DNA of 64,000 nt from Anaerotignum sp. GTDB lineage: Bacteria > Bacillota > Clostridia > Lachnospirales > Anaerotignaceae. Position numbers and translations under genes: made by a program. Shown here one piece after another: positions 35,583 to 43,207 of the stretch. Where the stretch lies: the NCBI GenBank assembly GCA_017523325.1, contig JAFWWO010000046.1, positions 1-64,000 of the forward strand, given 5' to 3'. Positions within the stretch are counted from its first letter, which is position 1. The number at the start of each line of letters is the position of its first letter. Below the pieces are notes generated by a model that did no database searches, was not told where the DNA came from, and saw only the letters and a list, made by a program, of their open reading frames with translations.

Positions 35583-35682
35583 AGCGCACCTCCTATTGGT
35601 TTGTCCTCCGCATCTTCCCGCAGGAAACCGATTCCATCGGCACCAAACCTACGGCAACAAATGCGTGTGTTATGATTTATAC
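35583..35682 (-). promoter_or_regulatory. Structured rpsB leader
   Basis: About 100 nt between the start site and rpsB fold into an outer stem CCGTAGG/CCTGCGG (35648-35654 with 35618-35624) closing an inner hairpin CCGAT-GGA-ATCGG (35628-35640). GGTTTG (35644-35649) can instead pair with CAAACC (35598-35603), which lies next to the ribosome binding site. Such alternatives are typical of ribosomal protein autoregulatory leaders; binding by S2 is an inference. Confidence 0.45.
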
Positions 35683-35688
35683 CAAATT

Positions 35689-35835: not shown

Positions 35836-38800
35836 TTATGCTTCTTCTGCTTTTTCTGCTTTCTCTGCATTTGCAGCAGCTTCTTCTTTCATTGCTTTCA
35901 ATTCATCCACTGCATCCTTTGTTACAATAACCCTCTTATTGGTATTATCCCAAACGATGCAATCATCGGAAATACCGAATGCATTGAACATTGCTCTGAA
36001 AGGAAGGAATGTTCTGCCATCCTTAATTACAGGTGTCGTATCAATAACGGTTCTTACGCCGTTTACGATTACTACATTTACGCCAATCTGAACAACAATC
36101 GTCTTACCGTCAGGTCTGCGTACTGTTGCAGTCTTTGTTGCGTCATCCCATGTGATGTCGCTGTTATCGATGGACAGTGCATGAGCAAATGCTCTCAAAG
36201 GAAGCATTGTTCTGCCGTTCATATCGATATAAGGTGCAACGTCTGTGTAATATTCGGAGCCATCTACTGTGTATCCTCTGCTGCCAATAGTGAATGTAAC
36301 GAATGCATCTACATTTACATCTACATCATCTGCACCTTTCACCAAAAGTTCAGACTTATAGTTGCCGTCAGTTGCATTATTACCCAAATCATAAACAGCC
36401 GTCAAAACATATTTGCCGGGTTCCAGATCGGCCAGCTTATCGCCTGCATCCAGTTTCCAATCACCTTTTGCATCTACTTTTGCTTTGCCAATCAGTGTAC
36501 CCTTGTTATTTGTCATACTGCTTGCATCTTTGCCGTATACAAGGATTTCTTTATTGCTCTGTGCTGTACCGGTCAGCGTTGTTGTTCCTTCCTTAACAGC
36601 CTTTTCGTTGACAACAATCGCTTTTGTCTTCGGTTTATAGCTACTACCGCCACCGCTGCTGCTGCCACCGTTGCTGCTCGGTTTGGGAACATTAAAGGTG
36701 GATGTCACAGTATACAGATTTTCACCATCGGTAGTGATATCTTCATAGGTTGCTGTAATCACATGCTGACCCACGGTAAATTCTGTGTTCACACCGTCAC
36801 CAAATGTTACGCTCCACTTACCGTCAGCATCTACATACATTTCGGAAGGGCTCAACAGTTGGCTGTTGTACTGCGCACCTTCGCCGATTCTTACCCAAAT
36901 CTTTTCGCCGGGCTGACCTGTACCAGTAATGGTCAACTGTTTTGTGCCATTTGCAACAGTAGCGCCGTTCTTCGGATAAGTAATGACGATAGGAGCTGCA
37001 TTTTCGTTCTCCATTGTGGTAATCTTGATTGTTTCGGATACAGATTCAGATGCGTTATCCGCTCTGTCAACCTGTCTGAATGTAACTTCTTTGCCCAGTT
37101 CTTTTCTGATGCCGGATTCCAGACCAAGTGTTGCTTTCTTAACTGACCATGCACCGCCATCGTTTGTTACCTCTTCAGGTGCAACTGTTGTCCATGTATC
37201 GCCGCCATCGAAGGAATACTGCAACTCATAATTGATGGGTTCGCCATCTGTGTAAGCCAGCAAGCCTTCTCCTGTGATTGTTTCATCTCTATCATAGATA
37301 GGATTTACTGTCACAGCTTCGGGAGCCTGATTATCAATTACCAAGTTTACAATCGCTTCACCAATTACGCCTTCCTTACCGGAATTTTCCAAATTGGTAT
37401 AAACAATCTTGAACTGGTAGTTGTTTTCCGGTTCCTCTTTGCTCAGTGCACCGATATTCAAATCTACGCTCCAAGCATTGCCGGATACTGTCCATTCTTT
37501 TACGCCCGTGATTACGGAGTCAGCATTTACGTTCTTACCCTTATCAAAGAAAACAAAGCTTACTTTAACGTTCTCGTTTGCAGCTTCGCCTTTTACGCTA
37601 AGAGTATTTATTCTGTCGCGGTTTACATAGTAAGTGTCAACGCCATTTACTACATACTTTGTCAAACCGCCAACATAAGTAATCTTCAGTTCATCAACCG
37701 TACCGATAGCGGGATCGCCGGGATCGCTCTCCTCTGCTTCTTTTACTGTAAACTTATTGGAAGCTTCAGATTCATTGCCCGCCATATCGGTTTCGGTCAC
37801 ATAAATTTCTGTGCCTGCCTTCTGCTGAGGAATCTTAATAGTCCATACATTGTCCTCAAGCGTCATATCTGTTTCGGGAACAGCGATATCTGTGCCGTCA
37901 ACATAAACCTTGATTGCGCCCTTATCGCCTTCCGCAGCCCATTTATAAGGCATTTCATTGCTTGTTACCTTCAGCACTGTTGTTCTGTTGGAAACAAACT
38001 CGTTATCGATTGCAGGAGCCTTGGGCGCTGTGGAATCGGGATAAATATATGTGGTGTTGCTATCCAGCTTATTATCCGTTACCGTTTCGCCTTCTTCAAC
38101 AAATCTTGCTACAACTGCAACCTTTGTGCCTTCAATAACCGGAGGTGTCTTACCGGAGTCGCTCAGCGCTTTAATCAATTCTATTTCGGAATTGCTTGCG
38201 CCTTCGCCACCAAATGTTACTGTCCATTTCTTATCATCATTTACAGTTGCTCGTTTCACGAAATAATCCATGAAATCTACCTGAATTGCAACGTCAATTT
38301 CATCTGTTTTCTGTGCAGTTGTAGTGCCTGTAAATTTGATTGCGTTATTTACGATTGTATTGATGAAAGGATTGTCCAAATCATCAATCGCAATGTCGTA
38401 TTCCTGAACAGATGCAGTTTCTACCTTAACCGTGTTGGAAGGATCGGAAACGTGACCTGCTTCATCTGTTACAACCGCATATACTTCATCCCCTGCACTC
38501 AGATAACCATCAGCGGAAATATCCACTGTCCATGTGCCATCATCTGCAACTGTTACAGTATATGTGCCCTTCGGTGTGGTAAGCGTCAGTTCCATACCTG
38601 CTTCTGCTGTACCATAGATAGCTGTGGATTTGGTTGTTACCTTGCCATCAACATTGTTACCGTCTACCACGGAGCCTGTGATTACAGGAGCATCGGGTGT
38701 TACAGTATCAATAGTAATGGTTGTGGTATCTTGTGTATATTTTCCTTCTTCAATTTCAGGCCGTTCGTCCAAAAGTCTTGCAGTTACGGTATATGCACCG

Positions 38801-41800
38801 TCATCCAAGCCTTTGAAAAGTGTTTTATTGTACTCCCATGTTGCTTTCCATGTGCCATCAGTACCTACTGCAACCGCCTGAGCGGGCAGAGCAAGTTCGC
38901 CCATTTCAAACAGCACTTCTACTTGCATTCCGCTGTAAACTTCTGTTGTTGTACCTTCGATTACAATATCCTTTTCATCCAGGACTGCATCGATTACCAT
39001 GTCATCATCTGCGGAAGTCTTTGTGATTTCCACTGCGATTGCAGGGTCATACTTCACATCGATGGAAAGAGGCACTTCAGATTCTTTGCCTGCTTTATCC
39101 ACTTCTGCTACTTTGATTTCGGAACCATAGGTAATGTAGCTATCCTTATCAAATTCAGGCAGAGTGATTATCCACTGGTTTGCTTTTGCTTCGTCGTCGC
39201 TTACTACCGGTTCTACTGTAACGCCTGTAAGTTCTACATCGTTTACATAAACCTTAGCGGTTGCTGCATAGCCGCCCATTTTTACTGTAATTTCTTTCGT
39301 TCTGTTGGTCACTTCCGTAGGTTCTACCAATTCGGGTGTACCGGGCAGTTCTTCAACCACTTCTACTGTAATCTCAGCAGACAAATCTGCATAAGCGGGA
39401 TCTGCATAAGAGATCTTCACTGTATATACACCATTTTCCAGCGTTGCCATAGAACCAAACAAATCGCTTACCTTTACAGTCTGTTCTGTTTTATCAACAC
39501 CTTCAAAATGCACTTCATTACCTTCAGGTGTTGTTACTGTTGCTTTCAGAGGCAGAATGGTATCATCTGCTTCTGTTACAGTGTACTTGAATTCAGATGC
39601 ATTTTTGCGATAAATAAACTGTTCTTCAGGTGTTGCCTTAATCTGTGCAACATCTTCTCTCTTCAATACCTTTGCCGTAATGGGTGCAGACTCATTACCT
39701 GCCAAATCGGTGATAGTAACTTCGATAGGTGTATCTACAAAATATTTGTCGATCTCAAACTCTACTTCGCCGTCAAAATTGTCATCTTTCACTGCTTCGT
39801 AAGTCTTATCGCCGATTTTCAGTACAACTGTTGCGCCTTCATCGCCTTCAGCCAGTGTCAGAGTTACCTTTGTGGTATTATCGAAAATCTGATCCAAGCC
39901 TCCAATTTCAGTCGGCGCTTTTGTATCCACAACGATAACTTTCGTTGCTGTCAGCTCAAGTTCCTCATCTTGATATGCAGGATCTGCATATTCTACTTTG
40001 ATGGTGTATTCGCCACCTTGGTAGATCCCACCAGCTATGCCATATTCATTAGCCTTAATTGTGAAGTCCTTATCAGCAACGGCATCTTTTACCTTTTTAT
40101 CTCCTACCCAAACGTTTACCTTTGCATCTTCTTCATATGTCGCTGTAAACGTCAGTTCTGTGTTAACTTTTGTGTAAGCCTTGCCGGTAAGAGTGTTTAC
40201 ACCGTAAGATTCAGGTGTTGTTATCTCAATCGGCGCCACTTTGCTGGGTTTCACTTTATTACCTGTGAATTCTTTGCTATTGCCTGCCAAATCGGTTACA
40301 ACAGCAGTAATTTCTGTACCAACGGGATGTTTTTCAATATCAAACTCTACCACGCCGTCAAAATCGTCATCTTTCACTGCTTCGTAAGTCTTGTCGCCGA
40401 TTGTCAGTGTAACTGTTGCGCCATAATCGCCTTCATCCAGTGTCAATGTTACCTTTCCGGCAACATCATAGATTTCATCCAGACCTGCGATGTTTTCAGG
40501 TGCTGTTAAATCCACAACAATAATTACTTCCGCCGCCAGTTCCTCATATGCAGATTCTACATATTCCACTTTAACGGTATGCTCACCTGCATCAAAGGAT
40601 GCTTTGTCGAAAGCACTGGCAGGAACTGTGATAACAGTTTTGCCTTCCTCATCTACTGCTATCTGCAGGCCATCGTCCTTTACTTCCTTGCCGTCTACAA
40701 GCACCTTGATTTGTCTGCTTGTTTCGTAGTCTACTTCAAATGTAAATTTTCCTTTTACGTTAGTATAGAATATGTTTGTATCGTCATATTGAGCCGCATC
40801 AACAGGTGTAATAGTAATTTCTTTCACTTCGCCGGGCAATACTTCATAGTCTTCGCCTTCATCATTGACAGTGAATGTCGTGCTATTGCCTGCTAAATCG
40901 GTTACTGTAACGCTCACTTTTGTGCCGGCAGGATATGTTTTGCCAAAAGCAAAAGTTACCTTGCCGTCAAAATCATCATCTACTCCAGTAAATGTATCAA
41001 ATGTATCTGTATCTTCTTCGCCGATTGTCAGTTTAACTGTTGCACCCTCATCGCCTGCATTCAGTTCCAGAGTTGCGCTTTCGGAGGTATTCACGATGGT
41101 ATCCAGACCGCCGATGGACGCAGGTGCTGTCATATCCAGCACAATCGTCAAAGTAGCTTTTTGTGTGTAAGCAGAATCAGCATATGTCACTGTTGCAACA
41201 TATGTTCCTTCCTCAAATCCGGCTGAGCCATAGATGCTGCAAGGAATTTCAACAGTAGGTCCGCTTGTAACGCCGGGAACCTCTTCTATATTTCCGTATG
41301 CATCCGTCAATTCTACTTTTATTTCCTTGCCTTCTGCATGTGTTACATCAAAAACAAATTCGTTCTTATTGTTGGTGTATACCACACCGTCTTTATCTTT
41401 ACCGTACTCTTCCTTCGGTGTGATTTGAATGTCATCAATCTCACCAACTTCAACCATAAATTCGCACTCAGCAGTTTTACCGGTATAAACATTTAACACT
41501 TTAACTGTTGCTTTACCGGCTCTGCCTGATACATAATCCAGAGGTACTTTCCACTTGCCGTCAGCGCCAACCTCAGTTGTTTCTTCGCCTCCATCTGCAA
41601 ATGTAACGGTAATTTCACCGTCAATATCGCCGGAAGTACCGGTAACCGCAGCACCGTCTATATCCATGTAAAATGTGTCCTCATCGGTTTTTACATCTGC
41701 TGTATTCTTTACAACCATTTTAACGGAGGTGAAAGCTTCTATGAAACCATCATATGTTACGGTTACATCATACTCACCGTCTGCTGCGAATGTTACATCA

Positions 41801-42861
41801 TCGATTACAGCCTTATTGGAAGCATCTACCGGAAATTTCTTTGAAGCACCGTCCTCATTGGTAACTTTAACTGTCTTAGGCGGCAATACGCCTCCGTTAT
41901 CGCTCACTTCCACTACAATCGGCATATTTCGATTTACATAGAATTTGCCATCGCTTGCAGCAATATTTCCGCCGATTTTATCAATCAAAGGTGCATCTTC
42001 GGGGTCAGCAAATGTAACAGTCGCCACATTGGAAATAACGCCTTTGCCGCCGCTGTTCAGTTTGCCGTCGCCGATTATGTTCTTCACGGGAACTGCTCTT
42101 TCCACGTCGTCACCGATGATGGTATCAAACAACTGCAGGCAAGCAAATGCCTTTTCTCCGCTTTGCGCCTTGTAGGATGTTGTAACAGAGCCGCTTGTTG
42201 TAAATTTTTTTCCAAATTTGAGGCTATAACCGGCATCTGTTTCGCCCTTTACCCAAAGAGACAACGTGCCATATGTGTCTTCAGGAACGTCATACTCAAT
42301 TACATAGCCTTCTCCCGCTGTGGCTTTTGTAATCTCGGGAGCAGTATAATCCATAGGCTGAACCACTACAAATTCAGCTTTTGTTTTCTCGAAAATCGCT
42401 TTGTAACCTTCCTCAAAATCGGTAGCAAAATCGGAACCACCTTTGACATATGCCGCAACAGTATATTTACCTGTTTCTAACTTACTAAAGTCATATTTGC
42501 TACTGTTGTAGTTCTCGCCGAGCTGAAACGTTACTTCCCCACCAGCCAAAATGTTTGCCGAATTCTTATGGCCAAGCTCTCTTATTTCCTCGTCATCCTT
42601 ATCCAATACACCTACACTCACTCTAGCGGTTCTCGGCGTATCATCTCCAACATAACCTGCTGCACCGTCTGCTTCATAGGTCCCTGAAAGAAGATGATAA
42701 GTTAATTCGCCTTTATAGGCCGACTCGTCATCCCAAGCCCACTCAGTATCAGTAGAATGAACAATCACAGCAGGGCTTTCCGCCATAACAGGAACAGAAA
42801 GTCCCAGTACCATGGCAAGAGAAAGTGCACCAGAAAGCAATTTTCTCGCTTTATACTTCAT
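35836..42861 (-). CDS. Giant secreted multi-domain Ig-like repeat protein
   Basis: A 2341-residue secreted protein. A signal peptide (KLLSGALSLAMVLGLSVPVMA) is followed by a chain of beta-rich Ig-like domains. Three repeats of about 200 residues at 480-1073, with a fourth partial copy, contain ITPxxxY...YTN, TAPxxIxGLDxI, VTLTLxEGDxGATV, FDGxVxF and VTDLAGNS. Other Ig-like units of the DxTAPxAPxI type lie near 1387 and 1614. A Gly/Ser linker (about 2070) leads to a further small domain. A C-terminal copper-amine-oxidase N-terminal-like domain (two LPLRAF/LPFRAM motifs, about 2187-2324) ends in an Ala/Glu-rich tail. No LPXTG or SLH motif is present, so anchoring may be by the C-terminal domain. 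The protein is highly acidic. It is probably an adhesin or surface-layer-like component; no catalytic motif is seen. The ATG at 42861 follows AAGGAGGG. Confidence 0.92.
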   Translation of the reverse strand: MKYKARKLLSGALSLAMVLGLSVPVMAESPAVIVHSTDTEWAWDDESAYKGELTYHLLSGTYEADGAAGYVGDDTPRTARVSVGVLDKDDEEIRELGHKNSANILAGGEVTFQLGENYNSSKYDFSKLETGKYTVAAYVKGGSDFATDFEEGYKAIFEKTKAEFVVVQPMDYTAPEITKATAGEGYVIEYDVPEDTYGTLSLWVKGETDAGYSLKFGKKFTTSGSVTTSYKAQSGEKAFACLQLFDTIIGDDVERAVPVKNIIGDGKLNSGGKGVISNVATVTFADPEDAPLIDKIGGNIAASDGKFYVNRNMPIVVEVSDNGGVLPPKTVKVTNEDGASKKFPVDASNKAVIDDVTFAADGEYDVTVTYDGFIEAFTSVKMVVKNTADVKTDEDTFYMDIDGAAVTGTSGDIDGEITVTFADGGEETTEVGADGKWKVPLDYVSGRAGKATVKVLNVYTGKTAECEFMVEVGEIDDIQITPKEEYGKDKDGVVYTNNKNEFVFDVTHAEGKEIKVELTDAYGNIEEVPGVTSGPTVEIPCSIYGSAGFEEGTYVATVTYADSAYTQKATLTIVLDMTAPASIGGLDTIVNTSESATLELNAGDEGATVKLTIGEEDTDTFDTFTGVDDDFDGKVTFAFGKTYPAGTKVSVTVTDLAGNSTTFTVNDEGEDYEVLPGEVKEITITPVDAAQYDDTNIFYTNVKGKFTFEVDYETSRQIKVLVDGKEVKDDGLQIAVDEEGKTVITVPASAFDKASFDAGEHTVKVEYVESAYEELAAEVIIVVDLTAPENIAGLDEIYDVAGKVTLTLDEGDYGATVTLTIGDKTYEAVKDDDFDGVVEFDIEKHPVGTEITAVVTDLAGNSKEFTGNKVKPSKVAPIEITTPESYGVNTLTGKAYTKVNTELTFTATYEEDAKVNVWVGDKKVKDAVADKDFTIKANEYGIAGGIYQGGEYTIKVEYADPAYQDEELELTATKVIVVDTKAPTEIGGLDQIFDNTTKVTLTLAEGDEGATVVLKIGDKTYEAVKDDNFDGEVEFEIDKYFVDTPIEVTITDLAGNESAPITAKVLKREDVAQIKATPEEQFIYRKNASEFKYTVTEADDTILPLKATVTTPEGNEVHFEGVDKTEQTVKVSDLFGSMATLENGVYTVKISYADPAYADLSAEITVEVVEELPGTPELVEPTEVTNRTKEITVKMGGYAATAKVYVNDVELTGVTVEPVVSDDEAKANQWIITLPEFDKDSYITYGSEIKVAEVDKAGKESEVPLSIDVKYDPAIAVEITKTSADDDMVIDAVLDEKDIVIEGTTTEVYSGMQVEVLFEMGELALPAQAVAVGTDGTWKATWEYNKTLFKGLDDGAYTVTARLLDERPEIEEGKYTQDTTTITIDTVTPDAPVITGSVVDGNNVDGKVTTKSTAIYGTAEAGMELTLTTPKGTYTVTVADDGTWTVDISADGYLSAGDEVYAVVTDEAGHVSDPSNTVKVETASVQEYDIAIDDLDNPFINTIVNNAIKFTGTTTAQKTDEIDVAIQVDFMDYFVKRATVNDDKKWTVTFGGEGASNSEIELIKALSDSGKTPPVIEGTKVAVVARFVEEGETVTDNKLDSNTTYIYPDSTAPKAPAIDNEFVSNRTTVLKVTSNEMPYKWAAEGDKGAIKVYVDGTDIAVPETDMTLEDNVWTIKIPQQKAGTEIYVTETDMAGNESEASNKFTVKEAEESDPGDPAIGTVDELKITYVGGLTKYVVNGVDTYYVNRDRINTLSVKGEAANENVKVSFVFFDKGKNVNADSVITGVKEWTVSGNAWSVDLNIGALSKEEPENNYQFKIVYTNLENSGKEGVIGEAIVNLVIDNQAPEAVTVNPIYDRDETITGEGLLAYTDGEPINYELQYSFDGGDTWTTVAPEEVTNDGGAWSVKKATLGLESGIRKELGKEVTFRQVDRADNASESVSETIKITTMENENAAPIVITYPKNGATVANGTKQLTITGTGQPGEKIWVRIGEGAQYNSQLLSPSEMYVDADGKWSVTFGDGVNTEFTVGQHVITATYEDITTDGENLYTVTSTFNVPKPSSNGGSSSGGGSSYKPKTKAIVVNEKAVKEGTTTLTGTAQSNKEILVYGKDASSMTNNKGTLIGKAKVDAKGDWKLDAGDKLADLEPGKYVLTAVYDLGNNATDGNYKSELLVKGADDVDVNVDAFVTFTIGSRGYTVDGSEYYTDVAPYIDMNGRTMLPLRAFAHALSIDNSDITWDDATKTATVRRPDGKTIVVQIGVNVVIVNGVRTVIDTTPVIKDGRTFLPFRAMFNAFGISDDCIVWDNTNKRVIVTKDAVDELKAMKEEAAANAEKAEKAEEA
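39321..41421 (-). repeat. Tandem coding repeats in the giant surface protein
   Basis: Three full units of about 195-204 codons (residues 480-683, 684-878, 879-1073) and a partial fourth (1074 to about 1180). Shared sequence includes VTDLAGNS, GATVxLxIG and, in the last two full units, TYEAVKDDxFDG. The units differ enough that the repeat is old rather than a recent expansion. Confidence 0.75.
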
Positions 42862-42980
42862 AATAATCTTGTCCCTCCTTACTTTAGTTTGAATAGCGTA
42901 CATTCCTTTCGCTATTTCTCGTTATATCAGGATCGGAATTCCGGCAATCCCAATATAAATTTCCCCTCTCTCCTTTCGTT

Positions 42981-43170
42981 AAAAAAATAAGACAATTTAC
43001 AAAAATTGCCATCAGTTTCACCGAAATCGCAGTGATTCCGGCTTTGTTTTGCAAAGTTCTCCTCTTCGGCTATTTGCACAACAACTATGCAACCGCCGAT
43101 ATATCACACCCTTTCAAGAAATAACCGTGAAAACACGTCAGTTTTTGAAAAAAACTGTATATACTATTTC
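42981..43170 (-). promoter_or_regulatory. Riboswitch-like leader ending in a terminator
   Basis: On the minus strand the leader contains in order CAGTTTTT/AAAAACTG (43157-43139), CGTG-TTTT-CACG (43137-43126), a two-tier hairpin TCGGC/GCCGA with TTGCATA/TGTGCAA inside (43099-43066), CTTTG-CAAAA-CAAAG (43056-43042) and TCACTG/CGGTGA (43035-43018). Next comes an intrinsic terminator: GGCAATTT/AAATTGTC (43010-42991) followed by TTATTTTTTT (42990-42981). The gene starts 120 nt further on. A folded domain plus a terminator before the gene is the form of a riboswitch or attenuator. I could not match it to any known class. Confidence 0.6.
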
Positions 43171-43176
43171 ATGGAA

Positions 43177-43207
43177 ATTATACCACATTTACCCCCCGTC
43201 CTGTCAA
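43177..43207 (-). promoter_or_regulatory. Sigma-A promoter of the giant surface protein gene
   Basis: Perfect TTGACA (43202-43207) and perfect TATAAT (43177-43182) with a 19-nt spacer, longer than ideal. The leader to the start codon is about 310 nt. Confidence 0.7.

Follow-up and report, generated by a model that had tools for sequence, protein, structure and literature searches.

The gene for a giant secreted protein on the minus strand of the window, by which we mean the whole stretch of 64,000 nucleotides analysed here, is preceded by a leader that could tentatively be read, from its layout and from its likeness to known designs, as a weak, translation-coupled transcription attenuator. 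Promoter elements, a Shine-Dalgarno sequence, an open reading frame (ORF) running through a terminator-like hairpin and a stable fold are all present in the leader; from their arrangement we infer a working terminator, translation of the ORF and a link between the two. In such a mechanism, RNA polymerase would start near 43170 and make the folded leader. With no ribosome following, the hairpin at 43010-42991 would form, and some transcripts would end near 42981 as an RNA of ~190 nt. A ribosome loading at GAGGAG (43064-43059) and translating the 56-codon ORF would cover the terminator stem, so that the polymerase would read on, and would stop just before the Shine-Dalgarno sequence of the giant gene, where it might help translation to start.

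The gene itself (35836-42861, minus strand, start at 42861) does encode, as an earlier note on this DNA had claimed, a secreted protein of 2341 residues. The protein carries a signal peptide as well as Ig-like (Big_6) and copper-amine-oxidase-N stretches near its C-terminus; its ATG lies ~120 nt past the end of the terminator and is preceded by the Shine-Dalgarno sequence AGGAGG (42874-42879). Leader and gene (35836-43207) sit between topA and rpsB, and in most relatives with a readable region topA is directly followed by rpsB; judged by this gene order, they are an insertion between the two genes that is seen in the source species only. In the genomes searched, no relative of the giant protein has been found beyond the region of its copper-amine-oxidase domain. 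Its signal peptide, MKYKARKLLS..., resembles the MKHKTSKLLS... of paralogous surface proteins of the same genome.

Transcription is predicted to begin near 43170 on the minus strand. The -35 and -10 elements had been described as a perfect pair, and the hexamers TTGACA (43202-43207) and TATAAT (43177-43182), the latter preceded by TGG as an extended -10, are indeed both consensus. Their spacing is not, as the spacer measures 19 nt against the usual 16-18 nt, and because of this length the promoter has not been listed by a simple scanner confined to spacers of 16-18 nt.

The terminator (42981-43010, minus strand) reads GGCAATTTTTGTAAATTGTC followed by TTATTTTTTT; its hairpin at 43010-42991 has an 8-bp stem and a UUGU loop and runs into the U-run UUAUUUUUUU, in which 9 of 10 positions are U. 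The intrinsic terminator with a nearly unbroken T-run that had been reported is thus present in form, and its weakness qualifies the description: the hairpin reaches just -5.2 kcal/mol, and when the leader is dinucleotide-shuffled 1000 times, a terminator this good arises in 29 cases. The same-strand terminators of nearby genes (-9.8, -12.6 and -14.2 kcal/mol) have two- to threefold its stability, and a stricter first scan has passed over the leader hairpin because its cut-off was set at -5.5 kcal/mol. By its sequence features, the element is a legitimate yet weak intrinsic terminator.

The leader ORF, which was absent from the earlier note and is newly recognised here, begins with TTG and comprises 56 codons (MQNKAGITAISVKLMAIFVNCLIFLTKGERG..., 42884-43054, minus strand). 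It spans the whole terminator and ends with the stop codon TAA at 42886-42884, just before the Shine-Dalgarno sequence of the giant gene and 22 nt from the gene itself. Its own Shine-Dalgarno sequence, GAGGAG (43059-43064, minus strand), is separated from the TTG at 43054 by 4 nt, which is short. Among 1000 shuffles, 5 contain an equally long ORF that has a Shine-Dalgarno sequence, and 74 do when the Shine-Dalgarno sequence is not required, counts that have to be read in the knowledge that the ORF was picked out post hoc. The codon score of -0.12 per codon falls between those of real coding and out-of-frame stretches, under 95% of real gene stretches of equal length and over most out-of-frame ones. 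The peptide matches no Pfam family, no relative of the ORF has been found, and a search for tandem repeats near it has returned none. Against the attenuator reading stand the missing relatives of the ORF, its post hoc discovery, the TTG start, the 4-nt spacing, the weak hairpin and the low codon score, as well as a homology to a second leader family elsewhere in this genome (described below) that is not significant.

The leader from 43170 to 42981 (~190 nt) is predicted to fold at -50 kcal/mol, and the stretch 42975-43175 at -50.8 kcal/mol, with a z of -2.4 against shuffles. When the terminator is held fixed and the part upstream is shuffled, 4 of 300 shuffles are as stable as the whole leader, and the stability of 43101-42981 lies above that of all 300; the RNA is therefore structured beyond its composition. 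Three helices before the terminator (all minus strand) stand out in the fold ensemble, namely CGUG/CACG (43126-43137, p 0.96), the hairpin UCGGC..GCCGA with inner UUGCAUAG/UUGUGCAA (43066-43099, p 1.0) and the hairpin GCCGGAAUC/GAUUUCGGU (43020-43042, p 0.84). Of the five hairpins that had been counted, these three hold, while the first and third compete with a long imperfect hairpin in the 5' part of the leader (43099-43164, minus strand, p 0.5-0.7); this long hairpin competes with three local ones, and CGUG/CACG alone is firm in that part.

Such a fold could also serve as a long 5' UTR that stabilises or tunes an abundant surface-protein mRNA, the terminator-like hairpin being fortuitous or too leaky to matter. 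We regard this as rather unlikely, yet the -5.2 kcal/mol of the hairpin, equalled by 3% of shuffles, speaks for it, and S-layer proteins typically have strong promoters and long-lived mRNAs (PMC8056022). Long leaders also precede large surface-protein genes in relatives, and in those of L041-L043 and L038-L039 no obvious terminator has been recognised by eye. A stabilising fold has, however, no need of 9 U in 10 positions straight after an 8-bp stem, and strong terminators are retained in the leaders of other, separate surface-protein genes in this genome.

The earlier note had proposed a transcriptional riboswitch or protein-dependent attenuator whose ligand would be new or whose class had not been recognised. 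The layout behind this proposal, with a promoter, a structured leader, a terminator and a gene, holds; the riboswitch part does not. No match to the leader has been returned by Rfam 15 at gathering score, and at relaxed E-values the best one within the leader, at 0.15, is an unrelated alphaproteobacterial sRNA model, so that known riboswitch classes are ruled out at both thresholds and the Rfam match that would have removed the novelty has not appeared. Neither the c-di-GMP-I nor the c-di-GMP-II model matches, in agreement with the observation that the conserved cores of these classes are not visible, and the sole Rfam match in the whole window is t44, the leader of ribosomal protein S2, at 35599-35687. 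Matches to the leader DNA are likewise missing from the other genomes of the genus and from plasmids, and none in phages is convincing; GTDB contigs contain no relative either, and a pattern search has yielded none. A covariance model of the leader has recovered only itself from 58 family genomes and 392 order genomes, its weak matches (23-bit) aligning single hairpins only. A control model built from the single t44 sequence of the window, with a structure line one column off that weakens the control, has, with E values of 1 or less, recovered the t44 leader at 19 of the 22 loci of relatives that include rpsB; for 14 of these the E value is no higher than 0.01. As no relative has been found, the leader is, within these collections, an orphan to which the usual riboswitch test, conservation, cannot be applied, and no conserved core can be claimed for it.

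A candidate motif, TTGAAWGGGTGTG, common to the leader and to leaders of surface genes of the same genus, has also been considered (best pair matched by 5 of 300 shuffles); it has not been accepted, because the comparison extended over 11 leaders and another match in the genome was plainly due to chance. The leaders of large surface-protein genes at L041, L042 and L043 (same genus) share GAATGGGTGTG and a common palindrome, TTCGTT..ATAATTATA..AACGAA, with short ORFs that begin at a shared ATG. The long leaders of two paralogous large secreted proteins at L038 and L039 (same family) are related to each other, and GTTAG..CTAAC hairpins recur in them.

It is improbable that a factor, be it a small molecule, as in a riboswitch, or an RNA-binding protein, tips the leader between the terminator and an alternative pairing of 43055-43047 with 43004-42996, which is predicted to exclude it. 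The isolated segment 43066-42981 does have two near-equal folds, at -19.6 and -20.1 kcal/mol, and the high stability of 43101-42981 would suit such a switch too. The hairpin at 43042-43020 and this possible antiterminator pairing are mutually exclusive. For the whole leader, however, 135 of 300 shuffles have an equal antiterminator capacity, which is thus no better than chance; since shuffled leaders are equally often bistable, bistability does not speak for a switch. Riboswitches, moreover, are normally common to several species, whereas the leader has neither an Rfam match nor a relative in the genomes and collections searched. One NusG gene has been found in the source genome (about 80% complete), the housekeeping one in a secE-nusG-rplK cluster, and no LoaP has been seen there. 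A riboswitch of a new ligand or class is thus unsupported, and a species-restricted ligand- or protein-sensing attenuator of an undescribed class that controls the giant surface protein appears very improbable. An independent small RNA of ~190 nt, with the giant gene transcribed mainly from a second promoter past the terminator, is quite improbable as well. Promoter and terminator would frame a compact stable RNA, and an extended -10-like element does lie past the terminator, where TTGCCG at 42947-42942 and TGATATAAC ending at 42921 (minus strand, spacer 15) are an example of such a second promoter; but this candidate has a poor -35 and poor spacing and is unlisted by the scanner, and no conserved sRNA relative occurs in the 58 family and 392 order genomes.

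A second leader family, found as a by-product and more interesting than the leader of the window, has come from a paralog search, which returned five copies of a different leader before surface-protein genes of the source genome. The signal peptides of these genes resemble that of the giant protein, and their products combine Listeria-Bacteroides repeats with SLH or copper-amine-oxidase-N domains. Leaders of this family are placed at C47:1-180 (minus strand, L118), C37:1-230 (plus, L101), C60:2395-2750 (minus, L099), C51:28812-29023 (minus, L103), C41:10830-11030 (minus, L100) and C21:16935-17071 (minus, L035). They have two terminators: T1, which in C60 reaches -7.3 kcal/mol, and T2, which ranges from -25 to -33 kcal/mol. 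In C60, a promoter made up of TTGCGA, a 17 nt spacer and TATAAT is followed by GAGGA and the ORF MQMLDKTAKMCIIVTNKGNDTLFLAWKNNRTYQAHHCGIGTCRFGVLFCVNGGGAY, which reads through both T1 and T2. The three further copies that span the region preserve this frame (four paralogs in total), and the variable columns number 12 at the third codon position versus 8 and 5 at the others. C47 and C37 bear a CGAA tetranucleotide tract inside the leader ORF, where the assembly breaks; past the tract, the three reading frames have their ends at differing positions, within T2 or beyond it. By analogy, the family looks like a phase-variable attenuator of the pil1 type discussed below.

The contigs C37, C47, C51, C41 and C21 break inside or beside such a leader; the CGAA tract forms the end of both C47 and C37, which may be chromosomal neighbours. 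In the C60 copy (2360-2430) there is a single CGAA unit, and the gene is truncated behind its signal peptide; next to it comes the gene of another secreted protein, which has a promoter of its own. No convincing match to a model of the family has been obtained in any other of the 392 order genomes.

Homology between the window leader and this family has been considered and rejected, as the family model R2 does not match the window and alignments are not significant. Promoter spacers are similar in the leader starting at 43170 and in the second family, a likeness that may reflect merely a common TGTGnTATAAT extended -10. The window leader fits the principle of the family by design, minus the repeats, and not by sequence. 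An ORF with a ribosome-binding site through the terminator, together with the same design in the second family, favours ribosome-coupled attenuation over ligand sensing. If the leader ORF does control read-through, the bacterium would gate its largest secreted protein via the coupling of transcription and translation, and, taken with the repeat-bearing family, leader-ORF attenuators would appear to be a general and partly phase-variable control of adhesin-like surface proteins in such bacteria, a control that we have found described for streptococcal pili only.

Several known systems share parts of this layout. The c-di-GMP-I and -II riboswitches of clostridial surface proteins occupy the same upstream position and use a transcriptional terminator, and differ in that the window matches neither Rfam model. 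In Escherichia coli pyrBI, a leader ORF of ~44 codons spans the terminator, so that coupled translation prevents termination; the window leader likewise has an ORF across its terminator, in another organism and another sequence, without pyrimidine genes and without evidence of UTP sensing. LoaP processive antitermination acts where very long genes that have intrinsic terminators are preceded by hairpins in the leader (PMC12691694), and this arrangement recurs here, whereas the UNCG-tetraloop hairpin typical of LoaP has no counterpart, as no helix closing a UNCG loop exceeds p 0.1 in the leader folds. In the pil1 and pil3 systems of Streptococcus gallolyticus, as in the window, a surface-protein gene is preceded by a promoter, a Shine-Dalgarno sequence and an ORF into or through an intrinsic terminator; here, the ORF behind the promoter has a ribosome-binding site and extends from 43054 to 42884, through the terminator at 43010-42981. 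It has been established experimentally for these surface pili that longer leader peptides destabilise the premature terminator, and in pil1 the repeat number alters the length of the leader peptide, translation through the terminator switching pilus expression (PMC3894217). The window leader, known from sequence alone, differs in its TTG start, in having no tandem repeat and in its weaker terminator, -5.2 versus the -18.7 kcal/mol of pil1 (PMC3894217); the tandem-repeat feature of pil1 is present instead in the second leader family of the source genome.
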